From Akebia trifoliata (lineage: Eukaryota; Streptophyta; Magnoliopsida; Ranunculales; Lardizabalaceae), in the NCBI GenBank assembly GCA_017979445.1, contig CM030713.1:24535163-24599162 (forward strand): DNA of 64,000 bases, given 5' to 3'. The position numbers were made by a program, and so were the translations under genes. Positions 6,301 to 63,459 of the stretch are shown here, piece by piece. Within the stretch, counting starts at the first letter, position 1; every line of letters begins with the position of its first letter. The notes beneath the pieces were generated by a model that made no database searches, was not told the origin of the DNA, and worked only from the letters and a program-made list of their open reading frames with translations.

Positions 6301-9300
6301 TGATATTTGATCTTGAATGATTCTTTAATCTTGAAGCTTGATCTTGAGTCTTGAAAAGCTTGATTCTTTATAGATTCTTGAGTCTTGAATTTGATCTTGA
6401 TTCTTGAAGCTTAGAGTCTTGCTCTTGAATCTTCTTGAATTTAGAAGAATAAAAAAAAATGTAGAGACTAGAGACTATAGAGTAGAGGTTCTAGAGAATA
6501 GAGAGGAGAAATGGAGAATGTAGAATTTTTTATCTTGATTCTTGAATATTGAATATGATTTTGATTCTAGACTTGTAGAATGCTTGTATTTTATTTGAAG
6601 AAGAATGGAGGAGGGATGTAAGAGTAGGCTATTTATAACCTAGTAGGAAGGCAATTTAAAAGAAAAATAAAAATTAAGTTGCTGTTCAACGGCTATTTTT
6701 TTAGCCGTTGGGACACATGCCATCGCATATTATGCCTTTGTATACTGTGCAGACCCCTCAATTTTCGCATATACCTCGATCGTATATGCGATTTAGCCTT
6801 TAGATTTCGCATATGCGCATATGTGGTCGCATTTGACAACAGTGGATTTGGCCATCATGTTGTTGGATGCCAAGGATGGCAGCCCATTGAAGTAAAAGAA
6901 AATGTGCAGATTATTCGGATTTTGAGCTGAATAAGCTCCAAGCCTCAATAGTACTCCTTGGTTGTTTTTTCCTTCTTTTTTTGAAAATTGTATAACCAGC
7001 CTTTAGTTTGAATTTATGGGAGTCAATAAGGTGTTTCAACAGGCCAATCTTGATTTCCAGCCTTTGATTATGAAGAAAACAGGAGTGGGGCAGTTGAAAG
7101 ACTACCAAAAAAGCATAGATATTTTAAATTACAACAGTTTTACAGAGTAAATGCCAACCAACCTTAGAAATGCTATGTTTTTATTTTTGCATAGAAGTCT
7201 TGAGTCTCGCCGAACTACTTCTCATCAACGATGACATTATTCTGAGAATTTAGAAAGCGAGAGAGATTACTTATTACACCTCTCTAATTATCCCAATTGA
7301 ACAGAGATATTGGGATAATTAGAGACCAATTGGTGCAACACGGTTTTTTTTTACTTTTTTTTTTGCCTGATAGGCATCAAAGAGTTGAATAAAACAAAGT
7401 ACGTTTGCCTACTTCTATTGACTCTACTAGTATATTACTGAACAGTGGTAACTCCATAATTAATTAGTCTTAAGTGTAGATATATCCCATTTTAGCAACA
7501 TTGATCCAGATTGAACTACATCCATTCCATAATTTATTGCATTTGGAGTGCATCAAAATCCAGAAGTTAATTCATGTTAATTGGAATGTTTTGTTGCAGT
7601 CCCATGAAAGGCATGTTTTACTGTGTGTTATATCTCAAGCCGGGTGACTATCATCGTGTACACTCTCCTGTTGATTGGCATATTTTACTACGCCGCCATT
7701 TTTCAGGTATCTTTACTTGTTTATTTGTTTGTTGGGAAACATCACATATGGTGAAAACATTGATGTACATAAATGCAATGAGGAACAATTCATTGTGTGT
7801 GTCATTCTATACATGCAAGAGTGGCAAATGAATCACTCTTGTAGATTAGCCACTTTCACAGTGACATAAAAATAGTTTTCTCTGCCATCACATTCTATCA
7901 TATATTTGGTGGATATCACTTTGTTAAAATTTGTATCATTGCAGGTCGACTTTTTCCTGTGAATGAGCGTGCTACACGAACTATCAGGAACCTCTATGTG
8001 GAGAATGAAAGGGTAATTCTTATTATAATTATAGATCATATAAGAGATTTTTCATTCATGTGAAAGATCTTTAGAATTGTTTTCATTAGGTATTGTTGCT
8101 GTTCTTATAATATTTTGAATGATAAGATATCCTACATAATGTGTTATAGTATCAAAACGTTCTGTTTCTTCATCAACTATCTGGATAAAAAAATTATTGA
8201 AAGGAACGAGAAGGTTTAAACATTTACAATGGGAGGAATGTGGTCCTAGAGAATTGGATTATTGCTCCTGTTGCCTCATTTATGATTCTTATCAGGTTTT
8301 TATATTAGCCTGAGTGAGAGGTTCTAGAGGTACATCAGTTGGTGGACCTCTTGTTTTTCGATGTGTAGTCTACAAGGGGATGGATGGACCATCTAACCCT
8401 TTGATACATTTAGTAAGTATTATTGGTAATCATTTTTTTTCTCCTAAAAATGTTGGTCAGTTTGGGTGTTAGGAGTCCCAGAGCCATGGATGTTCTTCAA
8501 GGTAAATTACTTCGGAGGTTCGGTGTTGGTTTTTCGTGGTTGGTTGGGAAGCCTATTGGTCTCTGGAGGTTGATTTTCTATTCTTTTATGGGTGCAGTGT
8601 TTGCAGAGGCATCTCCAATTCTTTCTTTGAGCATAGTATACATATTGACTATAAGATGGCAAAGTGTGGTTTTGGGAGGTTTTTGTGGTAGATGAGGTTC
8701 TTAAGAAAGCATATGCACTTCTGTTCTCCTTATTTGATCAGGACCAATTGTTGGATTGTTTTTATTGGATGGGAAGGGATTTGTTGAGTTTGTGCCTCAA
8801 GAATCTTAATGACTAGGAGATAAGAATTAGTCTCTTGCTTGCTTTTTGGCATTGATGGTGTGCACATTTCCACTAATCGGGCTGCAGTTTGGGTGAGACT
8901 ATCATAGATAAATTGCAAACAGATTGTCATAGATTTTTTGCTGCACGTGCTAGGCAAGCAGTGAACCCGTGAAATATCTCCACCTTCCCCGTGCTTTGGC
9001 TAGGGAAGTTAGGAATTCTTTTTTTTTTTTTTCTCTTTTTGAGATTTCTTGGATAATGTTAAGGATCAATTCAAGTACTTGTTGGAGTTGGTTTTCAGAC
9101 TAGCTTTTGGTTGATCTCGAATCTCATGGTTGTTTTCAATCGTTGGGGACTGATCACCGGTTGGATTGGTCAACCACTTAAAACTATGGGTGTCGCTTGT
9201 ATACTCCAGAAAGGCAAGTGGAAAGTTGAAAAAGATGTTTATTGGGGTTGAAAAGATTTGTAGAGCACACTTTAACTATTTGCATGGCTCTTGATATAGC

Positions 9301-12033
9301 TCCAAACAATACTCGTTATATATTTTTGTAGAGGAAAATGCTGAAGTAACATTGAAATTGTCATTGTTTCAAACATTGCTGACGTCAATGTGTTTTCTGA
9401 ACCATAGATGCTTTTCATCGAGATACGGAAGCATCTATTGTTCCCCGTGCTTTGGCTAGGGAAGTTAGGAATTCTTTTTTTTTTTTTTTTTTTCTTTTTT
9501 TGAGATTTCTTGGATAATGTTAAGGATCAATTCAAGTACTTTTGGAGTTGGTTTTCAGACTAGCTTTTGGTTGATCTCGAATCTCATGGTTGTTTTCAAT
9601 CGTTGGGGACTGATCACCGGTTGGATTGGTCAACCACTTAAAACTATGGGTGTCGCTTGTAGACTCCAGAAAGGCAAGTGGAAAGTTGAAAAAGATGTTT
9701 ATTGGGGTTGAAAAGATTTGTAGAGCACACTTTAACTATTTGCATGGCTCTTGATATAGCTCCAAACAATACTCGTTATATATTTTTGTAGAGGAAAATG
9801 CTGAAGTAACATTGAAATTTTCATTGTTTCAAACATTGCTGACGTCAATGTGTTTTCTGAACCATAGATGCTTTTCATCGAGATACGGAAGCATCTATTG
9901 TTCCCCGTGCTTTGGCTAGGGAAGTTAGGAATTCTTTTTTTTTTTTTTTTTTTTTTTTTTCTTTTTTTGAGATTTCTTGGATAATGTTAAGGATCAATTC
10001 AAGTACTTTTGGAGTTGGTTTTCAGACTAGCTTTTGGTTGATCTCGAATCTCATGGTTGTTTTCAATCGTTGGGGACTGATCACCGGTTGGATTGGTCAA
10101 CCACTTAAAACTATGGGTGTCGCTTGTAGACTCCAGAAAGGCAAGTGGAAAGTTGAAAAAGATGTTTATTGGGGTTGAAAAGATTTGTAGAGCACACTTT
10201 AACTATTTGCATGGCTCTTGATATAGCTCCAAACAATACTCGTTATATATTTTTGTAGAGGAAAATGCTGAAGTAACATTGAAATTGTCATCGTTTCAAA
10301 CATTGCTGACGTCAATGTGTTTTCTGAACCATAGATGCTTTCATCGAGATACGGAAGCATCTATTGTTCTGTGCACACCAATGTGTGAAACGATGTCAAT
10401 TTCAATGTTACTCCAGCACGACTCTTTGGTATATGATATATTTTTTTTCTTTTGTGGTTTGAAAGGTGTATTTCTTCTCATTTTCCTCCATTGAATAAGA
10501 ATGTTCAGTGGATGGTCCTTATTTAGATGATTTATTTCACTGTGATACATCTAGATGACCCTTCCTTTGGGTATCTTTTGTAGTTATACCAGTATTTAGA
10601 AATTTGGGAATTCCATAAAGTCATCTTGGTTGAATTGATTCTAATTTACAGATATCACTTTTTTCATTGAAAATCATGGGCTTCATAGATGCTATTTGTC
10701 TTTCATATCCCTAGGTTGTTCTCGAAGGTCAATGGGCAGAAGGATTTATGGCACTTGCGGCGATCGGTGCAACAAATATTGGATCCATTGAGGTTAATTG
10801 TTTGTCTTTTCAAATTTTAGTTCTTCCTTTATTATCGATGTTGCACTCTTACAGGATTTATGGATAATCAGTCTAAAGTGTTTATTTAGATGACTTTATG
10901 TGTACTTGAATCAAGTTTGTTTTGATATGAAAGCATAACTATTTTTATGTTCTATGGAAATCTTAAAGGAATTCTTTTTAAGATTATAGACCATGTAAAA
11001 GTTGTTTCATTGTCTGCACACTTCCATGTGTAGCCCAAAGAAGTCACATTTATTTGAGAAAATTCCATGCATGATTGCTGAAATATTTATTATTTTGTTG
11101 GACAAAAGCCCTTCCTCTCCAATCTTCTATCTTGGAGGCACACGTCTTCGTTACTTGGTTGGATTTGATGGTCCTCTAGTTGTTGATTTTGATCCAAACT
11201 TGCACTTTGGCAGCTTTTCATTGAACCAGAGCTTCGGACAAACAAGCCAAAGAAGTTACTGCACTCAGAACGTCCTGACGAGCGTGTCTATGAACCTGAA
11301 GGTGTCGGTGTGATGCTCAAGAAGGGTGAAGAGGTAAGGAAAGCTTTTAAAACATGTTTTGTCAGAACCCAACTGAACTTAACTTCTCTGACATTTCGGA
11401 AAACAAATTTGTGGTGAAAAAAAAAAAGGAAAAAACATTTCCTTTTACTTTCTCTTTTGAGCATCTATTTTTATATTTGTGAAAACCAAAATTCCCCTTT
11501 ATCTTCTGTTCATTTTTTAAAGGGTTCAGGTTGTAGGCATCATCAATACGAGATTTACCACATTGCTTTGTATGAAATACAACACTTCTATCATATATAT
11601 ATATATATATAGTTGCATTGATACATTATGAATGTTTTTTCAATAAAAGAGTGCTTTTGGTTCTTTCCTCATTAATCAACCAATACAATTTTATTCAACC
11701 ATGGGACGGTAATTGCTCGAATCTCTCTCAGATTCAGGTTTGGGTCTTTAATTAAATTGTATATGCTTCCATTCTCATTGTTTCTCTGTACTGCTTCTTA
11801 TTGTTAAAGTTGTGAATTCTTACATTTGGTTTAGCAGAAGTTTATTAATAAGCATGGATTATCTATCTCAGGTAGCAGCATTCAACATGGGATCAACTGT
11901 CGTGCTTGTTTTCCAAGCACCTGTATCAAAATCACTCAGAAAAGATGGCTCCTCGTCTGATTTCAAGTTTTGCATTCAGCGTGGGGATAGAATCCACATG
12001 GGAGAAGCATTGGGTAGGTGGGGTGATACATGA
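345..12033 (+). CDS. PSD1: Phosphatidylserine decarboxylase, mitochondrial type (3' seven exons; 5' end outside window)
   Basis: This enzyme decarboxylates phosphatidylserine to phosphatidylethanolamine; the plant PSD1 type acts at the inner mitochondrial membrane. Exons read in phase with GT-AG borders: 345-454, 567-817, 7600-7706, 7945-8012, 10715-10792, 11214-11333 and 11872-12033 (stop TGA). Family landmarks follow in order: [90 protein letters not shown] and [11 protein letters not shown]. The GST of the last motif is the self-cleavage site, where serine becomes the pyruvoyl cofactor. The C-terminus ALGRWGDT is typical. The first exon begins inside a codon at 345 after a CACAG acceptor, so at least one upstream exon, with start codon and transit peptide, is missing. 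No coding disruption was seen. Two introns are enlarged by a hAT element and by a triplication. The family identity is firm; the symbol is by resemblance. Confidence 0.93.
455..566 (+). other. Short PSD intron
   Basis: This 112-bp intron has donor GTAACT at 455 and acceptor ATAG ending at 566. It lies between codons CTG and GTC of the PSD reading frame. Confidence 0.85.
818..1982 (+). other. PSD intron, part upstream of the hAT insertion
   Basis: Donor GTATGT at 818. The stretch is AT-rich, with poly-A and poly-T runs and a (TA)n tract at about 1678-1706. I see no gene in it. Confidence 0.7.
1983..1990 (+). repeat. Left 8-bp target-site duplication of the hAT element
   Basis: GATTTGGC here is repeated exactly at 6845-6852, directly outside the element ends. 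Eight-base duplications are diagnostic of the hAT superfamily. Confidence 0.93.
3160..6230 (-). pseudogene. hAT transposase (BED zinc finger, DUF659), broken
   Basis: Read on the minus strand, the N-terminal region at about 6130-5930 resembles a BED zinc finger: a Cys-x2-Cys-like IVCELC, then [11 protein letters not shown] and a Cys in NARECP. At 5453-5172 is the DUF659 hallmark [19 protein letters not shown], followed by [12 protein letters not shown] later part, [24 protein letters not shown] with [11 protein letters not shown] (about 4480-4260), occurs twice because of an internal tandem duplication. The C-terminal tail (about 3470-3200) is rich in Asp and Glu. Stops and frameshifts separate these blocks, so no full-length protein is possible. 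It would have cut and pasted the element and related short copies. Confidence 0.88.
4152..4834 (+). repeat. 341-bp tandem duplication inside the hAT transposase
   Basis: 4152-4492 and 4493-4834 are near-identical, both beginning TTCTTGTACCGATCCAATTG and ending GGACATTAATTAG. The second copy has small indels. The duplication lies in transposase coding sequence and would itself disrupt the protein. Confidence 0.9.
6853..7599 (+). other. PSD intron, part downstream of the hAT insertion
   Basis: AT-rich, ending in acceptor TTGTTGCAG at 7599. It includes a short palindromic stretch near 7280-7330, where AATTATCCCAAT recurs inverted. I see no gene. Confidence 0.6.
8985..10373 (+). repeat. Three-copy tandem repeat (456-460 bp unit) in a PSD intron
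   Basis: Copies start at 8985, 9441 and 9901, each with TTCCCCGTGCTTTGGCTAGG. They differ by few substitutions and by poly-T length (about 13 to 28 T). Each ends in the left half of a MITE, but only the last copy is followed by the right half (10266-10418). The apparent small ORFs inside the copies are repeats of one another and match no family I know. Confidence 0.93.
10266..10418 (+). mobile_element. Foldback MITE, about 153 bp
   Basis: The end TGCTGAAGTAACATTGAAAT is mirrored by TGCTGGAGTAACATTGAAAT on the other strand, about 30 bp of terminal inverted repeat. The centre is a second hairpin whose loop holds TCGAGATACG (10344-10353). Left halves recur at about 9344-9440 and 9800-9900 within the tandem triplication. 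No target duplication is clear. Confidence 0.82.
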
Positions 12034-33799: not shown

Positions 33800-35548
33800 A
33801 TTTTCGAGTTTGGAACATCAACACTATATGGATTGGAGTGACCACCACCATTATTTTTTTTAAAAGGGTGTGAATGGCCAGTAGAAAATTAGTTTTGAAA
33901 ATTGATTTTTTTTGTTGTAGTGACTTTCATTTGATATAATCCCAATCTACCTAAGATCTAAGTAAATGGTTCGATTAGAGATAAAAAAAGGTGTTAACAC
34001 CCCTTTCTCTCCACAAAAGGATGGTAACCTTTAAAAACATAGCCATTTTAAGAAAATATAAAAAGAAAAGGAAAATTCGAGAAAACAACGATTTTGTGCC
34101 CTTAAACATAAGGAACTTTAATGTCAACTTAGATCATGAGGATCACTTCATTGAGAGGGAAACCCTAACAATGTCCTGTCTTAAGAGCATAAATTTTGAA
34201 AAGTGTTGACTTTGTTATCATGGGCCCTTCTCATTCAGTCATTATGGGCCCACTCTCTTAGAATGAGAGTAGGGAAGGTTGTTCATTGCATCCTAAGATT
34301 TTTAAACCAAAATTAAAGAAAGGAAAGAAAAATATACGAGGAGGGGATAAAAAGGGGGGATGATTAAATAATTTAAAAAACATATTTTAACCCACCTTGA
34401 AGTTTTGACTTCTTTCTTCTTCTTAAATCTTTGATAATGTAATATTAATTCCCTTTTTAAAAGGAAAAAAGAGAGAAAGAGATGAGTAAGAATTTCATTA
34501 TACTTTTTACATTGAAGAGGAGGCTTGATAGCATTGAATTTATCATAGGAGAGGGGACTTTTATAAAGGTTTGGGGGTTATTTTTAGTGTTAAAAATATC
34601 AATAGTAAAAAATGGTGGAGAAAGACATGGTTTAGGCAAAAAATATTTTAAATTTGAAGTTATGAAGGGGTAAATGTGATAAAGAGGGCAAATGGGTTGC
34701 TTTTGACGAATATTCATGGAGAAAATCCAAATGGATTGATTAGACAACTCATACCCTAGATTAAGTGATGGTTAAATTAAAAGGTGTGGGTGTTTAGTTG
34801 AGAGAATGATTCATATAAGGGGTTAGGTGGTTAAATTTTGGGGGGTGGGAGTTGTGATGACATGTGGCAAAAGAGTATGGAGGTGTATGGGTGACTTGAT
34901 TAAGGAGGAGTGTGGGGATGACTTACGATGGAAGTTTTAGAGAAAGTGATGGGGTTTGGTAATGACATGTGCTATGGTAGAATAGTGGGTTGTAGCTTTT
35001 AAGGGTGATGATGGGGTTAGATAGATTGGATTTGGGATTTTAGTTGTGGTGATGGAATGTGTCCCTTTTTATGAGCATGAGCTTTTGATGTTGTGTGGAC
35101 CTTGACCTTGGTCAAGTGGGCATTAATTGAGTTTTAAGTTTAGATAATGGATATGAGTATGGTTTAAAAGGATTTTTGTAGGTTGATTTTTGGTTAGGAA
35201 ATTAATTAGATTTGGCTTAAGTTAAGGTTAAGCTTAGGTTAGAAATTGATTTAGAATGGGGTTTACAGGGGATTTAGGGTGGCTTATAAGTGGTGGATTT
35301 AGACATTCTTGGAAATGGGCTTAAGATTTGATTTTACGATTGGGTTCGGTTTGATTTAGATGAGTTTAGAATGTGGTGAGTAGGCACGGATTCATAAGAA
35401 AAATATTTGTAAGCCCATGGGCCAATTAAAAGGCTTTGGGTTATTTTATTATGAAAGTTTCAAAATTAGGCCCTTAGGCCTTTGATTGTAAAAAATACAT
35501 TTTTATGGGATTTTTCAAAAGGGACTCATACAAATTGGGGTATCTACA
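33800..35548 (-). mobile_element. Gypsy-type LTR remnant, reverse orientation
   Basis: The plus-strand right edge CAAATTGGGGTATCTACA is the reversed start of an LTR related to the one at 45518-47535. Homologous blocks follow in reverse order: AGGCCCTTAGGCC-like near the start and a GTGACCACCACCA segment near 33840, matching the end of that LTR. The left border is approximate and no target duplication is clear, so the copy is old. The ORFs at 34457-34747 and 33991-34209 are not recognisable. Confidence 0.65.
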
Positions 35549-40978: not shown

Positions 40979-42210
40979 TTATACCTTATGCCTTCGAAAT
41001 GTGGCTGCATAAGATGCATGTATACTTAAAATTCTGACAAGTACACTTGGCACTTGAATCATTAGAAGAAAGTTTGATATTGCCTTATTATGAAGCTGGC
41101 ACTTAAAAATGGACGTGGTCTCATAATTTTCAACATTTTCAGACTTGAATTGAAGGCTTAAAAACAACTCATCTTGAAAATTTTCAAACCCAAACTTTGG
41201 GTAAGTCTTCTTTGCATCTTCTTCTATCTGCATGGATACCTTAAGGCATGAAAATACATAATTTCCATGAAAATCAACTCTAAGCTCTTTTTCATGTCGA
41301 TGCACATGTGCTTTATCAATTGCCATCAGAAACTCTTGAAATGTCATATCTCTTTCCAAGAAATCTTTAAAAAACTTATTTATACTCTCGTTTTATTGTG
41401 TTGTTGTCATGTCAGCACAAAATATATCTTTCGAGTAAATTAATACAAATTGTTGACGCTTAGCATAAAGCTTTTCTATCTAACCATTTTCACCCAAATT
41501 ATGTCTTGCAAGTAAACTTTCCCAACTTGCTTCAAACTTTTCAATAGTCTTATTATTGTAGATGCAGTGAATGAGCAATTTTGCCTGTAAAATTGTCCCA
41601 AATGCTTGTGGGCATCTTGAAAAATGTGTCATAAACAATAGCGTTGATGAGTATTCGGAAAAACTTGTGCAATCGCTCCTGACATGGTTGAATCTTGATT
41701 AGTGAGAATGATTTTTAGATGTTTTCCCTTCGTTGTCCTCATCCATGTTTCTAATACCCATATATACGAAGTTTCTGTTTCATTCAAAATTATCATAGCC
41801 CCAAAATAAGTGGTTTGCAAATGATGATTTACTTCGACAATTGGAACAAATGTCATCTTGTACTTATTTGTTTCATATATTGCATCAAAACAAACAACAT
41901 CTCCAAAATAATTATAATCCATCATTGATATTGCATAGTCTAGAAGAAACTTGTCGATTGCAATTTGAATCAAGTTGGATTGCATAAAACAAATTAGGAT
42001 TTGTAACTTGCATTTCATTGAAGCAATATAAGATACCTCGTGGATCTTCCTTCTTAAAATCCATTCTTCTTACAGAGAGCATGTGATTCCATACATCTCA
42101 ATCAATAAATCCAAAATATCTACTTTCACCAACTTCTTCAAATAAGTAGTTCATTAAGAGATTTGATCTAATGCTCGCTTTATTCATATTTTGAATCAAA
42201 TCCCCTTGAC
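40979..42210 (-). pseudogene. FAR1/MULE-like transposase-derived gene, 3' part
   Basis: On the minus strand, 42018-41629 gives DYAISMMDYNYFGDVVCFDA, IYETNKYKMTFVPIVEVNHH and IILTNQDSTMSGAIAQVFPN, the MULE-type DDE core of FAR1/FHY3-family proteins (YFGDVV-FDTTYRTNKY, TDQD). Here the first catalytic Asp is present, but the usual TDQD reads TNQD. 41359-40979 continues with a helical segment (EFLMAIDKAHVHRHEKELRVD) typical of the part before the SWIM zinc finger. Stops and frame changes between blocks show it is broken. Its 5' part lies at 49987-50600 beyond the CACTA insertion. FAR1-like proteins can be transposases or domesticated transcription factors; which this was cannot be told. Confidence 0.85.
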
Positions 42211-42213
42211 TTC
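42211..42213 (+). repeat. Left 3-bp target duplication (TTC) of the CACTA element
   Basis: TTC here and at 49987-49989 flank the CACTA ends. Three-base duplications are characteristic of En/Spm transposons. Confidence 0.85.
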
Positions 42214-43351
42214 CACTATGTGAAAAAAGCCCATATTTGACGGTCTTAGCCCGTCAAATATGCCTGTCAAATATTTTCCTGTAGAATTTTTTTTTTACTA
42301 CCCTAGACTATCAAATTATTAGAGAATAAACTTCAAAAAAAAAAAAAATCCATAGAGTATGGCTGTCGAATTTGGAGGTTTAACAAATAATAACACGGTC
42401 CTCTAATTCACTAATCACAATAAACGAAATAATAATAAAAAAAATCAGAAAAAAAAAAATTAAAAAAAAAATCATAAAACAAGCTCCAAATTAAGTTAAA
42501 CAACTCAAAATTCATATTATATATTGAAATTCCATTATTAAACAAGTTCTAATATAAGCAATTGGGCACTAACAAATGAAATTGAGTCACATAATTGCTT
42601 AGAAATAAAACACAATAAAAAACAAATGGTTGTGATGCATTTCATCTGTTCTGGCTCTCTCCGCTCTATCGTGTCCTTTTATTTTTCTCAAGGTTTGGAT
42701 TTCTCTTACATTGTCACTGTTTCCTAGATCAGATACTCCTTATTGGTTCGATTTTGAGATGGTTGAAGACTTCACCGTCGTGTCAAAAGTTTCTTATGTA
42801 ATGTATGCTCAAAATTTCGAGCTCAAATATCATGCCACGTGGAATCAATCACCATATATAAACCACTAATACCATCAAACAACGAAAGAGAGTTCCACAT
42901 TCTCCCATGCCTCATGAACACAGAACATGATTACTAAGATATCACTTCATACCATCAATATCAAAAGTTCATCAATAAAAGTATGACGTTTTTCTGATTT
43001 CAATGCCGGAGTCAAAACAATAAGCAGAAGAAGAAATCAATGATTATACCGAAGATGGAATACAGACAAACCATGTTGTGTAGTTAATTAAAAAGATCGA
43101 ATAATAATAAATTCAAACACACTCAATTGACGTGGAATGTGCACAGAACCATAGTGCTTGAGTCACGTATTATGCCCATCCTATAATGCTTGAGTCACCT
43201 AGGGATAGATGGGGCTTGAACTTAAGTTGTGTTTTTTTTTTTCACTTATTTCTCTTCCCATCTGGGTTTTGTGACTAATGGAGAAGGTTGTTTACTGTAT
43301 AGCAGTTATGAAAATGCATATAAACAGATTAAAGGGCATCAAGACAAATAC

Positions 43352-43466
43352 CTCAAGAGTGGATGTGAGGCCAACTCTAATATCTCCACAATACTCTTGG
43401 TCCTTGACCACATTGTAAGGAGTTGGTGGCAAATTTCCCTCCATAAACAGTGAATCAAGAGAAATG
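43352..43466 (-). pseudogene. Captured exon of a plant C2-domain protein
   Basis: After the acceptor TTTTTACAG it reads 38 codons without a stop, ISLDSLFMEGNLPPTPYNVV then KDQEYCGDIRVGLTSTLE, ending at donor GTATTT. This matches the C-terminal part of small plant calcium-dependent lipid-binding C2 proteins (pattern PLEPVF-EG-PPTAYNVVKDEEY-GEI-V-L-F). Retained splice sites show capture at the DNA level rather than from mRNA. No other exon of this gene was found, so it cannot make a C2 domain. Confidence 0.8.
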
Positions 43467-44093
43467 CTGTAAAAATCATAAAATAAAAATTTGAATAACT
43501 TCACTTCAAGTATGATGATAATACATAAAAGGGTAACAATTTGAATAACTTCACATTAAGTCTGAAGAGTGGTTTTGATCCTCCATTTGTGGTATTACCA
43601 CATAAAGACTTCTCACCAAGTTGGCACCTATTCCAACAAAATTTTGGATATTGAACTATAAACACAAGTACAAATATCGATCAAGCATGCTACACTTCAC
43701 AAAATTACATCCCTAAAATTTACTTTTTAATAGACCAATCGTAGCTACAGCCCCTTGATCGTAGTAAAAAAAAAATGGTGGCAATTTTTTTTAAAGTCGG
43801 ATTTTAAAAAATTCATTTTTTAGGGAAAAACAAGTGAAAAACAATAAAACAAGTGTACTTCTAGCAATAAAACAAGTGAAAAACACATTAAAAAAAATAC
43901 ATTTTTTGTGGCTTGTGGTTAGTTTTTGTAGCCTTATGGTTGTTAGTGATTTGGCTCATTACTCCAACTTGGTGACAATTCCCTTGAACTGAGAGGAAAA
44001 CATTGATCTTTAGCTAAAATTTATGAAAGAGATGAAAAGGGGATCTGTAAAATAAAGGCATTAAAAAGAAAAAGAAAAACTTTTGGTTTGCAC

Positions 44094-45413
44094 CTCTTTT
44101 GCAGTGACCCCAAAATGATCTAGCAACATTCTTACTCCACTTCCTTTCGAAGTCCCAGAAGGGACAATTTCAAGTATATCTGGCATAGCTTGGACAACGC
44201 CCGCATGCCCTTTTGTTGCCTCTGACTAATATGGTCGTAATGTAGTAGTTACCTCCTTAGTTATGCCAAAAAAATAGAAGTTTTTGCAAATCCAAATAAT
44301 TTGTGTTATCATGAGAATAGATTAGCCAAGTAACCACCACAATAGGAGATCATAGTAATTGGGCGTGTGCCCATCAAGTGAGGCCAACTGGCTGGGCATA
44401 CATTGGCATTTTGCCCAATCTTATCTACTATAAAATATTTCTTAAAAATACTTTTATGACGTAATCAAAAGAATAAAACAGCCAAACAACAACAATATAA
44501 GATTGTATTGATTGGCTATTTGCACATGCGCCCAATGAGATCAACTGGCAGGGTCAACATTGGCATTTTCGAAATATATTGTAACTCTTGCGCAAGAAAA
44601 CTCTAAGTTGATAAGACGTGTAGAGTGTTGTTCCCACTTCCTAGGTTTAAACCCCATCAGGAGAATGGAAAATCAAACACACAGAAGCATCCAAATATAT
44701 GAAAAATTTTAAGAAATTAAAGCATTCAAATAACACATAAAAAGAGAGAAAAAAAAAAAATTGGTGGGTACATCAATGCTTGCACTCCCAAATTATAATA
44801 AATGCACTAGAAATTAAAAAATCAATGCTTGCACTCCCAAATTTTTTGAATACAAATAAATGCATTAAAAATTAAAATATCCATGCTTGGACTCCCAAAT
44901 GATCTCAATCAAAAACAAACCAAGAACTTGGTACATGCATGGTCACTTGCAATCCCGGAAGTTTATCATGGAACCATCCATTTAAGTGACAAGCTCAACT
45001 CTAAAATTTTCATCATTATTACTTTAATAGCTTTTGCATTTTCTAGATTTACTTATTTACAAAACATATAGATTAGAGATAAAAGTTACACAATTTTTTT
45101 CATGACTTTGGTGTTAAATTACGGTTAGGTCGATATAATGTCTACTTTGCACAATAACATACCGGTATGTCAGCAGCAGCTAAGAGGTGCTCAATCGAAG
45201 GTATGACTTCTGCTTGCAGAAAACTCCCAAATCCCAATATCAAACAAACTTCAAATATTGAGGAATAAATAATCCAAGAGTGCAGCTAGGTACCTTTGGC
45301 TCGTGATATACAAAATAAAGTGAGTCAACCAATAGGTGGTCTATTAGTGTTAAGCACCGGTCCTGGCTAAATGCAATGAGAAGAACCTTGTGTTCCTAAG
45401 AGTACATAAATGC
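44094..45413 (-). pseudogene. Captured three-exon fragment of a Cof-type HAD-superfamily phosphatase
   Basis: Exon 45413-45294 encodes 40 codons ending LLVDSLYFVYHEPK, with AFMYS then a stop where relatives have Leu. Exon 45213-45163 continues AEVIPSIEHLLAAADIP. Exon about 44290-44094 gives TTTLRPY, stop (Trp in relatives), SEATKGHAGVVQAMPDILEI and VPSGTSKGSGVRMLLDHFG, ending at donor GTGCAA. GTSKG with the Lys is the substrate-lysine motif of Cof-type HAD hydrolases. The exon with the final Asp motif (GDGEND in relatives) is absent. The middle exon's acceptor appears mutated (TGCAA where TGCAG is expected). Introns are retained, so capture was from genomic DNA. Two in-frame stops make it non-coding. 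Confidence 0.85.
44770..44905 (+). repeat. Short tandem repeat, three copies
   Basis: ATGCTTGCACTCCCAAAT-type units start near 44777, 44825 and 44882, about 50-57 bp apart, inside the captured HAD intron. Confidence 0.7.
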
Positions 45414-45517
45414 CTGCAAATCAAAATATAGGATTATGTCAATGACCGGAGTCAATCTCTCATGCAATTTCAATATATGAATCCAAAATAAACACCACCA
45501 TTGGTCATATTGCTAAC

Positions 45518-47535
45518 TGTAGACACCCCAATTTGAACGGGCCACTACTCGAAAAGGCCCAAAAATACAGATTTTCCAAATAAATGGGCCAACGGGCCTT
45601 AAGGGCCCAAGTCATTGAAAAGTGACATTTTGACCAAACTGAGGCCCCTAAGACCTCTCAATGGTTTAGGAGGCCCACCAAAAGGACTCGGCCAACCTTA
45701 CGCTTTCCCAATATTCACCGCTCCGCTTCCAAAAATTAAAAATGCCAAATTTTCGATAAATTTCACCAACGGGCCTAAAAAGCCTGATTCGCCAACACGT
45801 GGCATTTTTTATCAAACTAATGATTGCAAAAATCTAAAAAAAATTAAAAAATTAAAAATGTGAGACTTGGGATGCCTACCCCTCCTCTACTACCACCGCT
45901 CCGCCTCCGAATCCGCAAAAAACCATAGGCCCACCTAAGGCCCATGAGCCCTCAACACTTTCCTAAATCGATTTCTCATCTTACCCTTAGCCTAAAATCA
46001 ATCCCACATCACCTAAAATCTAAAACCAACCTATACCCTCAAAATCCATTCCAAAATAACCCTCAACCAAACCCTAAAACCCAAAACCATTTCTAAAACC
46101 CAAGCCCAACACTACAAAGCCCACAAATCATTAACCATATCCAATTCATTATCCAACCCACAACCCTAACCCATAAACCACAATCCACATCAACCAATCA
46201 CTCTTTTATCATCAAAAGATGACACATGTCATCACCCCATCTCACCTCCCTCACCCAACTACCTACCCTATTAATTTGCTTTAAATCCCATCTACCCACA
46301 CATCAACCCATCACCTTTTCTCTCAAATCAAACACATCTACCCACACCCCTAACCTATACCTCCCCTAATCTACCCTCATCATTCCCTACAAAACCCACA
46401 TCTATAACATAAACCTACACCATCCTCTCAAGTCAAACACTCAACCTCTCCCATCAACCTATCTCAACCCTTCATTTCCACCCACTTTAACACATGGCAT
46501 CATCTCCCTCACCCTCCCAAAATATCATCAACTACCTCTTTAAATCCTCCATTCTCTTAAATCAAATATCATTTAATCTCAACCACCAACTTAAACTCAC
46601 CTCACCAAACACTCCACCCAAATGGGTTGGGTAGGATCCAAACCATTTGGGTCAAAACTCACCCATTTAACCCCCCTTCCTTAAATACCCTCCAATCTCC
46701 TCTAAATTACACCCATTTCTCTCTCAAACTCATAACCATTCTACCATTTTTCTTCACTTCACCCCATTATATCCCTAAAATAACTCTTCAACATCTATAA
46801 ATACCCTCCTCCTCTTCCCAAAAATGGCCCCCAACTTTCACTACAAAATTATCTCCAACTCTCACTACTAACAACCATCACCAATCCTCCTCAAGTCTCA
46901 TATACAAAAAAAAAAATATTATACTCCACTCATCTCTCTCATCATTTCTTCTCTACTCCTTCAACCATACAAGAATTGTATTTTCATAAAATACTAAGGA
47001 CTCAAGAAGAAGAAAAGAAGAAAGAAGATACAAGGTGGGTTCAAGGCAATCCCCCCCCCCTCTCTCTTCTACACCCTCTCCTCCTCCCTTTTCTATCACC
47101 ATCTCCCCTTCATTTTATTTTTTAGGATGAATGGACCCCAAGGCTAAAGGTCTATAAGGGTCATTTCCATCAATGGAATGACCCTATGATCAAGCCGAAA
47201 ATGAACCCCTATCTAGGGTACAAATGCACAACACGTGGCACATCGTTTTTCGTATTTTTTTTAATCAAAATAATCGAGTTGAGTTGAGGTTACCACTATC
47301 TAGTGGGGAGAAAATGGTGCCTAACACCTTCCCTTTTCTCCAATCGAGCCGCTTACCCGAATCTCAAGGGTTGATTCATCTTTATCCATCGAGAGTCACC
47401 AAATACCAAAAATGTCACATTTTCTAAAAAAAATGCACATCGGGTGACCATTCACACCCACTTACAAAAATGAATGGTGGCGACTCCAAACCATTGTAGA
47501 TGTGGTCATCGTAATGGCGAAATCACGTGTCTACA
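45518..47535 (+). mobile_element. Solo LTR, Gypsy type, 2,018 bp, nested in the CACTA element
   Basis: It begins TGTAGACACCCC and ends GTGTCTACA, so the terminal nine bases are perfectly inverted. Perfect 5-bp duplications CTAAC flank it (45513-45517 and 47536-47540). No internal retroelement sequence or second LTR is attached, so it arose by LTR-LTR recombination. The plus strand is poor in G and rich in CCAAC/CCTCA runs (about 45880-46900). TATA-like ATAAATACCC occurs near 46796-46805 and a C10 run follows at about 47050. The block GGCGACTCCAAACC near the 3' end is typical of this plant LTR group. Confidence 0.93.
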
Positions 47536-47685
47536 CTAACCATAGTGCTTACATACAATACACATAAATTTAAATAGAAGATTATGCAACAAAGAAACAA
47601 TACTATGAGATTAAACAAATCTTAAAAATGTTTTAATGTGAATATATTTCTTTTCTCATTTTTATTTTACGTAACAAACTACTAA

Positions 47686-47719
<34 letters not shown>

Positions 47720-47736
47720 CGTGTGTGTGTGTGTGC
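47686..47736 (+). repeat. Compound (TA)n(TG)n microsatellite in the CACTA element
   Basis: About 13 TA units lead into GTGTGCGTGTGTGTGTGTGTG. The short Cys/Val ORF across it is an artefact of the repeat. Confidence 0.85.
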
Positions 47737-48335
47737 ACGTCTATGCTTCTCAAAGGCATCATGTATCCAAGTGCATGTGCTGCAAGATCTCCACAAACTA
47801 TTAAATACATGTTCGATGGGGTCAGATTTCTCCTAGTGGAGGAAAATGATACAGAACCATATTGTCACTTTAAGTTAAAGCAATATTTGGGTTAAAGAAT
47901 ACAAATGCAACAACTTGGAAATCTTGTCTATAGAGAGAGAGAGACGTGGAATGTACGTTTCTGAATTTCACATCATTGGCTTGCAAGGATAGCTCTAAAT
48001 TTAAAGGAAAGATTTCATACCACTCCCACAAGCATTTAAGAAATGCAAATCATTTGAGCACTGCAAAGAATAATTCCCTTGCATCCAATTGAAAAAGAAG
48101 ATTATAGAGAATATTGAAGTTTCTCCTGTTGTCTTTCATGCCCAAACAAGCAGTGAATATTGAAGTTTCTCAAGCATATAAATGATAGTCAAATAGGTGC
48201 CTGTGTTTTGGGGTTCAATTGTTAGACTAGTGTAGCATGATCTTTGCATAATATTATATATGTGTCTGTGCATGTCTACACCATCGAATCTTAAAGTGTA
48301 GAAAAAATAAGGGAAATGGAAGTGAAGAGCAAAAC

Positions 48336-48521
48336 CTCCAGTATAAGAAGGCAAGGTGGTCACTTGGTTCATCATGTCCTTGAAAATCATTTCAGATGGT
48401 TCAACAACCACGACTCCTGAATTCAACCTCTCAGAATGCTTCAAATTAGTACAGAACTTCCTACATTTAAAGAGATCCTCAATACTCTTCACCACAATAG
48501 TGTCCGCCTCGAGATATACAA
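48336..48521 (-). pseudogene. Captured exon of a GT8 glucuronosyltransferase (IPUT1/PGSIP6-like)
   Basis: After acceptor TGTGTAG the frame reads VVYLEADTIVVKSIEDLFKC, then KHSERLNSGVVVVEPSE and MMNQVTTLPSYTGG, ending at GGAG-GTTTTG. Plant GUX/PGSIP-type GT8 proteins have VYLDADT-VV-IEDLF, NSGV-VVEPS and SYTGGDQGFLN in the same order; the sphingolipid glucuronosyltransferase IPUT1 is the closest pattern I recall. The DAD metal-binding motif reads EAD here, so the catalytic first Asp is lost. The following exon (DQGFLN) is absent and the frame runs into intron. There is no in-frame stop in the 186-bp exon itself. Confidence 0.85.
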
Positions 48522-48639
48522 CTACACAAAACAATTTATTTCAAATATAATAAACGTGACCAAATGAGAAATCAACCCAAACCACTATAGGATTAAGTAC
48601 TGATTATCAAGACTAGTCACATAGCATCAAAATTGTGAA

Positions 48640-48830
48640 GCTCAGTCCAAGTATGGTGGTCCATTGTAGATGTAAGGAATTAGGTTGACGCATCTCCTGA
48701 TATCTTCATTAAACCCATCTATATCTTTCCACATGCCATGATTTGGTCTTAGTTGGTTGAAAGTCTCAAATGCACTTCATATTTTACTAAGGTTGGCACA
48801 CGTACATTCTCAAATGATACTTCTGCAACA
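48640..48830 (-). other. Unidentified coding-like segment in the CACTA element
   Basis: On the minus strand a short frame reads DIRRCVNLIPYIYNGPPYLD before a stop near 48645. It looks like real protein sequence and may be a fourth captured fragment, but I do not recognise the family. Confidence 0.3.
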
Positions 48831-49559
48831 ATACAAATATTGACATCTCTGATTTAAATTCAGTTTTTTCTCCTAGATGCGCAATATCCTCAAATGGACT
48901 ACTACTATAAAATGATAAAAGTTTACACTGAGGCTGCTTGTTTTGCTAAGGCATCTGCTACTGAATTTATTTCCCTAATAATAGTCTGTAATGCAATTCA
49001 TTTTCCAACAGTTCTTTTTATTCTCTTTTATCCATGAAACCAGGCAAATTATACACTTTGATGAAACCTATATCAAAAGTTCAATCTACAATTTACATGG
49101 CTATGATTTCTCAAGAATCTGACCATCTAATTTAACATTTGAAAACCAATTTCACAGAAACAAAAAATAGAACGAAACCGATTGCTTTAGAAGATTAACA
49201 AACACCTAAAAACACTAAAAGATGTTCATTGTACGACAAAAATTAACCAAAAACCCAACTTTCCACCTCATATATCTTCAAAACCTCAACAAAACAGAAT
49301 AATCTCACAATTTCATATCCAAACCCTCATAGAATCCACCATTAAAACATTAAAATAATACAAAATAAATCACTAAAAGAATCGAAGATATATTTAATTG
49401 TAAGACGCACTAGTAAACCACAAATCATCATCGAATTTACAGTCGATTCTCTTCAAATCAAGATTTACAGTCGATCATACCTTGAAAAGTGAAAACACCT
49501 TAATAGAAACCCAGCTTCCAATCTAAGACGATAAATTGTGACAGAGATCGAAACCTTAG

Positions 49560-49890
49560 AGAGTTCAATCCGATTGCGTGAGAGAAATTGAAATCCTAGA
49601 GACTTCAAATCCGATTGCGATTGCATCAATGAGATATGGAAGTGAGAGAGATCTATCGAGGGAGACAGATCGAAAAAGAGATCGATCAAATAAAGTGGGA
49701 GATGAGAACTATCGAGGGAGACAGATCGATCAAGGGATAGACTGTGAGAGAGAGAGATGGAGAGGTCGATCGATCAAGAGAGCGACTGTGAGAAAGAGAT
49801 GAAGAGGTCGATCGATTGATGACTGTGAGAGAGAGAGAGATGAGCTCGAGAGACAAATAGTGAAAGTGGATGAGATCGAGCGAGAGATGG
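49560..49890 (+). repeat. GA/GATC-rich degenerate repeat near the CACTA right end
   Basis: Variants of GATCGATC, GAGGGAGACAGATCG and GAGAGAGAG alternate for about 330 bp. The overlapping Arg/Glu-rich and Ser/Leu-rich ORFs on both strands reflect this composition. Confidence 0.7.
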
Positions 49891-49986
49891 GAAATGTGGT
49901 CCGAAAGTCGTAGAACTTTGGTATTAAAAATTGACGAGCTAGGCTCATCAATTTTTTTGGTTAAAATTTGGAATTTTCACGTAGTG

Positions 49987-50600
49987 TTCGACTAATCTTT
50001 TGATGTGATCTTAGTAAATGACGCTTCTTCAATTTCTTAAATTTGTGATTGTGTTCTTCTTAAAAGATCTGCTTTATTCATATTTTGAATCAAATCCCTT
50101 TACTTCTATCAATCTTTTGATGTGATCTTAGTAAATGACATTTCTTCGATGTCTCACATTTGTGAGTGTTTTTTCTTAAAAGGCCGTAACAACCCATGCA
50201 CCATATTCACTTTGTAACTTAACCACACACTTTGTTGGGCATCCTATTGTTGTATCACTATGATGCTTAACGTTGGTTACATCATCTTTTTTGTACTCTT
50301 CACGAAGCCACCCTTCTTTGTTGCAAATAATTATCGCCATATGATAGCATTAGTTTTTCTGGATCTACGAGAACTTCCGTTCCATATGCTGAATCCCAGC
50401 TTACTTGCATACTTATTATAATATTGGCATGCATCATTTACCGAATCAAATATCATACCAATATGAGATTTTTCTACTTTACCCACTTCATAATCTTTTT
50501 TTCTCCATTTATCATATGTTCTGTTTCCTCTCAATCATCATCTGTAAAGTGTTTGTCTGTGTTCTCTCGTCATCATAGATTTCTTCTCCTTCAACATTTC
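49987..50600 (-). pseudogene. FAR1-like gene, 5' part (DNA-binding domain)
   Basis: On the minus strand, 50534-50331 reads KSHIGMIFDSVNDACQYYNK then YASKLGFSIWNGSSRRSRK, the start of the FAR1 domain (P-IGM-FDS-DEAY-FYN-YA---GFSIR----R-SRK). The remainder follows across stops and a frame change to QASVWLSYK-like sequence near 50240. It is separated from the MULE-like core (40979-42210) by the CACTA insertion. Two tandem copies of about 108 bp (49990-50095 and 50098-50200, with GATGTGATCTTAGTAAATGA in each) lie between the domain and the breakpoint. Confidence 0.82.
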
Positions 50601-51271: not shown

Positions 51272-51594
51272 GGTGTTCGGAGGCCCAGAAGAGAGCCAAA
51301 CATTTTTTCAATGCAAGGGTTAGAAGTTTCAGAACTGGCTGATTTTTTTAAGGATAATCTCTATGATGAGGAGATCATCCTCACAAAAAATAGCCCATTC
51401 TTAAACTTCTAACCTCATCAAAAGTTGTTTACAAAAAACGGACGGTCCACGGTCTTTAACTTGTAAATAGGGGTAGAAGTTTCGAAATGAGCTGATTTTT
51501 GGTGAGGATGATCTCTTCACAAAAAATCAGCCCATTTTGAAATTGTAACCCCTATTTTGAAAATGTTTGGCTCTCTTTAGGGCCTCCGAACGCC
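51272..51594. mobile_element. Hairpin MITE copy 1 (323 bp)
   Basis: The ends GGTGTTCGGAGGCCC and inverted GGCGTTCGGAGGCCC extend to about 40 bp (with GAGAGCCAAACATTTT on both). Left flank is a TA tract, right flank a (TC)n tract. Inside are two GCTGATTTTT...AGGAT-type hairpin modules. Confidence 0.85.
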
Positions 51595-51633
51595 TCTCTC
51601 TCTCTCTCTCTTTCTCTCTATGTATATATATAT

Positions 51634-51963
51634 GACAAAATCTATGACAATGATTTTTGTCTTAGATGAGTTAGAAGTTTCTGTATTGGCTGATTTTTGG
51701 TAAGGATGATCTCATCACCATGGAGATCATCCTCACCAAAAATTAGTTCATTCCTAAGCTTCTAACTCCATCAAAACTAGTTTACAAAAAAAATTATGAT
51801 TCACGATTCTTCAACTTAGGGTTGGAAGTTTCAAAATGGGATGATTATTAGTGAGGATGATCTCCTCACCATAGAGATCATTCTCACCAAAATTTAGCCC
51901 ATTCCAAAACTACTAAACCCATCAAAAGTGATTTACAAAAATTCATTGTCATAAATTTTGTCA
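51634..51963. mobile_element. Hairpin MITE copy 2
   Basis: GACAAAATCTATGACAATGA at the left matches inverted GACAAAATTTATGACAATGA at the right. The ends differ from copy 1, but the interior has the same two modules, such as GAGGATGATCTCCTCACCAT. The left flank is TATATATATAT. Confidence 0.82.

Positions 51964-53000: not shown

Positions 53001-53048
<48 letters not shown>
53001..53048 (+). repeat. (TA)n microsatellite, about 24 units
   Basis: Uninterrupted TA repeats end directly at the left end of hairpin MITE copy 3. Confidence 0.95.
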
Positions 53049-53049
<1 letters not shown>

Positions 53050-53052
<3 letters not shown>

Positions 53053-53420
53053 GAGCGTTCGGAGGCCCTAAAGTGAGACAAACAGTGTGTCAAACATTTT
53101 TGAAAACATGGGTTAGAAGCTTCAGAATGGGCCGAAGAGATCATCATCACAAAAAATCAACCCATTCTGAAGCTTCTAACCCTAGTTTACAAGTTGAAGA
53201 ATTGTGGATCGTCAAGTTTTTGTAAATCACTTTTGATGGGATTAGAAATTTTGGAATGGGCTGATTTTTTGTGAGGATGATCTCCTGATTTTTTGTGAGG
53301 ATGATCTCCTCATCATAGAGATCATCCTCATAAAAACTTAGTCCATTCCGAAACTTCTTACCATGTTTTGAAAAATGTTTGGCACAATGTTTGACTCACT
53401 TTAGGGCCTTAGCACGCCAC
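53050..53420. mobile_element. Hairpin MITE copy 3
   Basis: GGGAGCGTTCGGAGGCCCTA and inverted GGGTGGCGTGCTAAGGCCCT are the ends, with AAAGTGAG and TCAAACA shared further in. It sits between the 53001-53048 TA tract and a (CCCA)n(CA)n(TA)n tract at 53417-53459. Both hairpin modules are present, the second with a short local duplication. Confidence 0.85.
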
Positions 53421-53459
53421 CCACCCACCCACCCACACACACACACACACATATATATA

Positions 53460-53775
53460 GACAACGTGTTTTGTCTTATATGGGCAAAAAGGTTCGGAAT
53501 GAGCCGATTTTTGTGAGGATGATCTCTATGGTGAGGGAATCATCCTTGCAAAAAAGCAGCCCATTCTGAAATTGCTAGTCCCAGTTTGCAAGTTAAAGAA
53601 TAGTGGACCGTTTATTTTAACCGTTAATTTGTAACCACTTTTCATAGGGTTAGAAGTTTTAGAATCAGATGATTTTTTGTGAGGATGATCTACTGACCAT
53701 AAAGATCATCCTCACAAAAAATCTGCCAAATCCGAAAACTGTTGTCCTATATTATTATGTAGTTAAATCACACAC
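53460..53775. mobile_element. Hairpin MITE copy 4
   Basis: It begins after TATATATA with ACAACGTGTTTTGTCTTATA, the subterminal block of copy 6, and contains both GTGAGGATGATCT modules. The right end is diverged (GTTGTCCTATATTATTATG). Confidence 0.7.
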
Positions 53776-62215: not shown

Positions 62216-62660
62216 GGGTGGCGTTCAAGGGCCAACTTTTTGGCAAAACATTTTTCAAAACATGGGTTAGAGGTTTTGGAATGGGCTGATTTTTGGTGAG
62301 GATGATCTCTACGGTGAAGAGATCATCCTCACCAAAAATCAGCCCATTCCAAAACTTCTAACCCATGTTTACAAGTTAAAAAATCGTGGACCGTCCATTT
62401 TTTATAAACTGTTTTTGACGTAGAGATCATCCTCATCAAAAATCAGCCCATTCCAAAACTTCTAACCCATGTTTACAAGTTGAAAAATCGTGGACCGTCC
62501 ATTTTTTATAAATTGTTTTTGATGGGGTTAGAAGTTTTGGAATGGGCTGATTTTTGGTGAAGATGATCTCCTCACCGTAAAGATCATCCTCACCAAAAAT
62601 CAGCCCATTCCAAAACTTCTAACTCATGTTCTGAAAAATGTTTTGCCATTGAACGCTACC
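62216..62660. mobile_element. Hairpin MITE copy 5 (445 bp)
   Basis: The ends GGGTGGCGTTCAAGGGCCAA and inverted GGTAGCGTTCAATGGCAAAA share AAACATTTTTCA further in. TATATATATA borders it on both sides. The interior has near-perfect hairpins, TTTTGGAATGGGCTGATTTT pairing with its inverse, and one extra half-module, making three arms. Confidence 0.9.
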
Positions 62661-62675
62661 TATATATATATATTA

Positions 62676-63038
62676 GGATCCGTATACACATAAAGCTACT
62701 CATAAAGCTACAACGCATTTTGTCTTATATGGGCAAAAATGTTTGGAATAAGCTGATTTTTTGTGAAGATGATCTTTATGGTGAGGAGATCATCCTTGCC
62801 GAAAATCAGCCCATTATGAAACTTCTAGCCCCATGTTTACACGTTGAGAAATTTTAGACCGTCCAATTTTTATAAATCACTTTTGATGGGGTTAGAAGTT
62901 TTGGAATGGAATGATTTTTTGCAAGGATGATCCCCTCACCACAGAGATCATCCTCACAAAAAAATCAGCCCATTCCGAATCTTTTTAACCATATAAGACA
63001 AACACGTTGTAGCTTTATGTGTCTACGGAACCCCACCC
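62676..63038. mobile_element. Hairpin MITE copy 6
   Basis: GGATCCGTATACACATAAAG and inverted GGTTCCGTAGACACATAAAG are the ends, continuing into GCTACAACG and GTCTTATATGG on both. TA tracts lie on both sides. A 16-bp local duplication (CATAAAGCTAC) sits at the left end. Confidence 0.88.
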
Positions 63039-63117
63039 ATATATATATGGAAAATGTTGTATGGACCAAGAGACCAGGTAGAGCATAGATTGAGGTTAAC
63101 ATATGGGTAGTGTTTGG

Positions 63118-63459
63118 CTGACAATCTTAGGTTGACAACGTTGGTTAATAAAATTTATCTTATATGATTTAAAAGTTTCGTATTTGACTGATTTTTTGTG
63201 AGGAAAATCTTTACTGTAAGGAGCCAATCTAAATCTTCTAACCCCATCAAAAGTGATTTTCAAAATTGAAGAATTATGGATCATAAATTTTTATTATAAA
63301 TTTGTAAGTCACTTTTGATAGGGTTAAAAATTTAGATTGAGCTGATTTTTTGTGAGAATGGTGAGGAGATCATTCTCACAACAAATTAGTCCAATCCAAA
63401 ACTTTGAAGTCATATAAGACAAATATTATTAATCAACATTGTTGGGCTAAGATTGTCAG
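63118..63459. mobile_element. Hairpin MITE copy 7
   Basis: CTGACAATCTTAGGTTGACA and inverted CTGACAATCTTAGCCCAACA are the ends, followed by AATAA and CTTATATG on both. The interior modules are present but more diverged. Confidence 0.85.

Follow-up and report, generated by a model that had tools for sequence, protein, structure and literature searches.

The 64-kb window, meaning the whole stretch of DNA analysed here, contains a CACTA-type element at 42214-49986, which spans 7773 bp including a nested insertion and lies within FAR1-like sequence (Table 1). Between its termini the element holds exons of three host genes. On the minus strand, read from the right end inwards, these are an exon of IPUT1 (glycosyltransferase family GT8), three exons of a HAD gene and a single exon from a C2 protein gene.

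Table 1. Features of the CACTA-type element, its cargo and the flanking target sequence
Feature	Position	Strand	Remarks
FAR1-like target, downstream half	40998-42213	-	MULE domain ~41617-41898; SWIM ~40998-41060, below Pfam cut-off
Target-site duplication TTC, left copy	42211-42213	.	adjoins left terminus
CACTA terminal inverted repeat, left	42214-42226	+	CACTATGTGAAAA
Subterminal YCGTCAAWT, left inverted pair	42235-42243 and 42251-42259	- and +	exact motif matches
Captured exon, elicitor-responsive-type C2 protein	43352-43466	-	115 bp; open frame; AG and GT
Captured HAD exon C	44094-44283	-	donor GT; acceptor position CAA; frame break near start; TAG
Captured HAD exon B	45163-45213	-	donor GT; acceptor position CAA
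Captured HAD exon A	45294-45413	-	AG and GT present; one in-frame TAG
CTAAC 5-bp duplication around nested insertion	45513-45517 and 47536-47540		
Nested solo-LTR-like insertion	45518-47535	.	2018 bp; 9-bp inverted ends TGTAGACAC/GTGTCTACA; TG...CA
Captured IPUT1 exon (GT8, inositol phosphorylceramide glucuronosyltransferase 1)	48336-48521	-	186 bp; open frame; acceptor AG and donor GT
CpG-rich right end	49500-49986	.	40- and 44-bp tandem repeats; CpG observed/expected 1.29
Subterminal YCGTCAAWT, right copy	49929-49937	-	exact motif match
CACTA terminal inverted repeat, right	49974-49986	-	reads CACTACGTGAAAA on minus strand
Target-site duplication TTC, right copy	49987-49989	.	adjoins right terminus
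FAR1-like target, upstream half	49990-50426	-	FAR1 DNA-binding domain ~50286-50426, 29.9 bits (cut-off 28.1)
Neighbouring repeat copy (empty insertion site)	50071-50180	.	local repeat in flanking DNA

Termini, insertion site and nested insertion

The CACTA ends with 13-bp inverted repeats and the TTC duplications described in the first-pass annotation were both recovered: the repeats are identical in 12 of 13 bp and TTC is present on both sides of the element. When both strands of the 64 kb were searched, CACTAYGTGAAAA matched only at the two termini, and first-order Markov simulations gave a mean of 0.0 matches (60 runs). A literature text search with the letters of the 13-base repeat retrieved an 11-base form and no 13-base one, and none of the listed titles concerned a CACTA element.

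The local repeat in the flanking DNA provided an uninterrupted copy of the insertion site. After the flanks had been joined with one TTC, 98 of 110 aligned bases were identical to this neighbouring copy, with 2 gaps and with the alignment crossing the junction; the right flank was ended at 50064, which kept the compared copy out. The joined flanks scored 150 vs 62 for the left and 95 for the right flank alone, and the maximum of 300 shuffles was 33. Since the neighbouring copy runs through the position of the junction with a single TTC, the interval is absent there, and 42214-49986 is bounded as one insertion. An origin of the two ends from unrelated CACTA elements, the case which the first-pass annotation had set against its own reading, was rejected, as the empty neighbouring copy speaks against it.

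On the minus strand of the joined flanks, a FAR1-like protein stretch reads through the insertion junction; the linker across it is presumably FAR1-like as well. Because the domains of this target lie in different frames with stops between them, the FAR1-like sequence split by the element looks like a pseudogene. A local duplication is found beside the insertion in the FAR1-like sequence.

The nested insertion makes up 26% of the 7773-bp span; subtracting it together with one CTAAC copy leaves 5750 bp for the CACTA element proper. Neither this insertion nor the FAR1-like target nor the lesions of the captured exons had been mentioned in the first-pass annotation. When six read-through frames of the insertion were searched, no Pfam family passed the cut-off, and one Ninjurin match was sub-threshold. 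Together with the TG...CA ends and the CTAAC duplication, this makes 45518-47535 look like a solo LTR, which would have been reduced to that form after its arrival. Elsewhere in the window, its part 47287-47494 has a relative of about 200 bp at 33828-34030, which matches it at 69% in inverted orientation.

Exact YCGTCAAWT matches numbered three in the 64 kb, where about 1.7 are expected by chance, and all of them are located at most 60 bp from the ends of the element. Of 1271 segments, each 486 bp long, 7 reached the CpG ratio of the right end (3 at the right end, 4 elsewhere). This CpG-rich end is possibly the promoter end of the element, in which case the cargo would be transcribed in sense. 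For 42214-45517 and 47541-49986, six read-through frames were compared with Pfam, and no transposase family was found at E<=1.

Several features were observed elsewhere in the window. A 467-bp unit occurs three times in tandem at 8985-10369 (97% matches), and a many-copy family of direct and inverted repeats occupies 51295-51943, 53015-53751 and 62243-63423, with a 104-bp tandem at 62318-62522 as part of it. On the minus strand, 5172-5585 encodes a fragment of DUF659 (E 5.2e-35), a domain frequent in hAT-like transposases, and an open stretch at 16426-16758 matches class I Trp/Tyr tRNA synthetases (PF00579, E 8.9e-10); the latter may be an exon, or a further piece that was captured. Rfam gave 0 matches at the gathering threshold over the 64 kb.

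The captured exons

The first-pass annotation had the element enclosing exon-intron fragments of C2, HAD and GT8 genes, all in the same orientation. Both statements held, with the fragments matched to three plant protein families and all of them on the minus strand. These matches also mark the window as DNA of a plant. Five parent-type proteins (P0121, P0123, P0126, P0146 and P0150) were compared with the whole window by tblastn, and matches at E<=0.1 were confined to the element; a further tblastn of seven GT8 proteins covered 42001-50100. Pfam searches of single ORFs gave no call for the GT8 or the C2 piece.

For the GT8 exon, 436 of 443 candidate proteins matched, with 76-87% identity among the 120 listed, many of which carry the label inositol phosphorylceramide glucuronosyltransferase 1; the best identity to the relatives compared was 55/63. 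The DAD motif reads EAD in the captured exon, and D was found in 117/117 fragments compared, i.e. the 120 listed of the 436 matches minus three rows from Capsicum. Two more residues of the exon were absent from all 117 fragments. One match (P0077) is labelled ‘monocation-induced [Ca2+]i increases 1’, which we take to be MOCA1, a salt sensor. The three Capsicum proteins (P0001-P0003) were considered as better parents and rejected, their high scores coming from an IPUT1 exon that is held twice, whole or in part. They look like independent shuffling of the IPUT1 gene, and in two of these predicted proteins (P0002 and P0003) the doubled exon adjoins an unrelated N-terminal stretch.

The HAD exons matched 29 of 395 candidates with a best E of 1.4e-48, and were aligned well enough to be counted in 28/29 (exon A), 28/29 (exon B) and 25/29 (exon C) of the matches. 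PF02130, which we take to be the YbeY family, is also present in 15/29 matching proteins, and 6/29 are labelled endoribonuclease YBEY; judged by these matches, exons A-C resemble the HAD portion of YBEY-HAD proteins from plants. The best protein identities to relatives were 33/40, 15/17 and 42/54 for exons A, B and C, respectively. In total, the HAD exons bear two in-frame TAG codons and one frame break, and the position of the TAG in exon C is occupied by W in 25/25 aligned relatives. The open piece of exon C matched Pfam Hydrolase_3 with 22.1 bits (cut-off 20.9), vs 17.2 bits, i.e. under the cut-off, for the longer read-through frame.

The C2 exon showed 81% identity to a C2 protein from Liquidambar (1 match of 1 candidate) and 75% over 40 residues in another alignment; 1wfj (‘putative elicitor-responsive gene’) was matched with E 1.8e-7. 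Further captured genes were sought and rejected, as beyond HAD the read-through Pfam search returned only Prolamin_like, Thy1 and YcbB below cut-off, and single ORFs only S6PP, Aida_C2, GlnR_1st and PTHB1_pf, likewise below cut-off.

With exon edges placed from protein alignments, GT was found at 5/5 donors and AG at 3/5 acceptors. Hence the earlier statement that splice sites were retained is right for the donors and only partly so for the acceptors, with HAD exons B and C reading CAA. Capture from genomic DNA, as proposed in the first-pass annotation, is well supported by the presence of intron borders within one bounded insertion. The last codon of the GT8 exon is cut after its first base, HAD exon A opens with a complete codon and the C2 exon has a single base ahead of its first complete codon; since these phases do not fit, GT8 joins neither HAD exon A nor C2 in frame. 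Present coding function of the cargo appears unlikely because of the stops and frame break in HAD, EAD in GT8 and the frame mismatch of GT8 with the others.

Origin of the element and alternative explanations

Altogether, we consider it highly probable (about 0.93) that the locus represents a Pack-CACTA-like, non-autonomous CACTA (En/Spm) element with genomic segments of IPUT1, YBEY-HAD-like and C2 genes, which was moved in trans, inserted in FAR1-like sequence, split by an LTR element and then decayed. The segments of the three host genes would have been captured separately, one after another; the Arabidopsis homologues of the three parents are presumably located on different chromosomes. Capture may have proceeded, for instance, by fusion of neighbouring insertions, as in the published Pack-CACTA model, in which neighbouring insertions fuse and are re-mobilised with the intervening DNA (PMC13317346, PMC8903248). 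The resulting element of about 5.75 kb was probably mobilised by a transposase from elsewhere and inserted in the FAR1-like sequence with duplication of the 3-bp TTC. It was later split by the nested insertion, probably an LTR retrotransposon that would then have been reduced to the solo LTR, so that the probable order is capture, FAR1-like insertion, LTR insertion and solo form, with decay of the element. Against the Pack-CACTA-like reading stand the HAD Pfam match, which drops under the cut-off once the longer read-through frame is taken, and the sparse subterminal repeats: the 3 exact copies, with about 1.7 expected per 64 kb, compare with 28 in Tgmt*, a putatively autonomous soybean CACTA of 20.5 kb that encodes a transposase, unlike the present element, in which none was found.

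The short inverted repeats of just 13 bp and the few subterminal motifs would also suit an accidental arrangement, in which pseudogene remains of ordinary intergenic DNA happen to lie between CACTA ends that are unrelated, but the empty neighbouring copy crosses the junction with one TTC and the simulated sequences (60) gave a mean of 0.0 matches to the terminal repeat, which makes this explanation extremely improbable. In another reading, transcription along the minus strand, begun at the FAR1-like locus or at the CpG-rich right end, would splice the captured exons as cassette exons into chimeric transcripts: exons and target share the minus strand, AG and GT are both kept in 3/5 exons, the right end is CpG-rich, and chimeric splicing is documented for Tgm-Express1 (PMC1947982). 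Such an exon trap is nevertheless unlikely, given the stops and the domains in different frames of the FAR1-like target, the CAA at two HAD acceptors and the frame mismatch of GT8 with both HAD exon A and C2.

The first-pass annotation had suggested that minus-strand transcripts could act as antisense on the parents. This has the strands the wrong way round: all three pieces are encoded on the minus strand, thus transcripts of that strand would be in sense with the parents and antisense would need plus-strand RNA. Captured sequences are described as siRNA reservoirs for maize Helitrons, Pack-MULEs and Sireviruses (PMC13317346), but it is very doubtful that the present element gives rise to small RNAs silencing any of the parents (IPUT1, YBEY-HAD or C2), as this would require plus-strand RNA or the action of an RNA-dependent polymerase and the protein identity to relatives is at most 55/63 (GT8) and 33/40, 15/17 and 42/54 (HAD A, B and C). 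A chimeric minus-strand unit, driven by the element's own right end or by the FAR1-like locus, that splices the intact IPUT1 and C2 exons together and whose RNA or double-stranded form modulates IPUT1, is a long shot.

Relation to known elements and significance

Tgm-Express1 of the soybean wp allele is a 5.7-kb CACTA element, inserted in a gene, whose cargo comprises parts of introns and exons from five host genes unrelated to each other; its transcription has been shown (PMC1947982). The present element is similar in its size of about 5.75 kb (CACTA proper), in several host-gene pieces with introns and in its insertion in gene-like sequence. It differs from Tgm-Express1 in that it carries pieces of three and different genes, has a FAR1-like target and contains a nested LTR. 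The triple co-oriented capture, which had been regarded as notable, loses weight: shared orientation of three fragments has a probability of 1/4 by chance (simple arithmetic), and multi-gene capture is already in print (PMC1947982).

Pack-CACTA and related Pack-TYPE elements of Arabidopsis, rice and maize are non-autonomous, have ends of the CACTA type and contain coding DNA of the host (PMC8903248). In maize, Pack-TYPE elements often combine several source loci, Pack-CACTA most of all; among those of rice, only Pack-Mariners did so significantly (PMC8903248). Like Pack-CACTA, the element described here has CACTA-type ends, no transposase found and host coding DNA, in this case with introns.

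The element is thus a fresh example of a documented type, and ordinary for that type. Its interest lies in a legible stack of events, i.e. capture, FAR1-like insertion, LTR nesting and decay, with the empty site preserved in the same window, and it can serve as an instructive case of how CACTA elements shuffle exons. Its importance would be greater only if it were true that the minus-strand exons are spliced or feed small RNAs against IPUT1.
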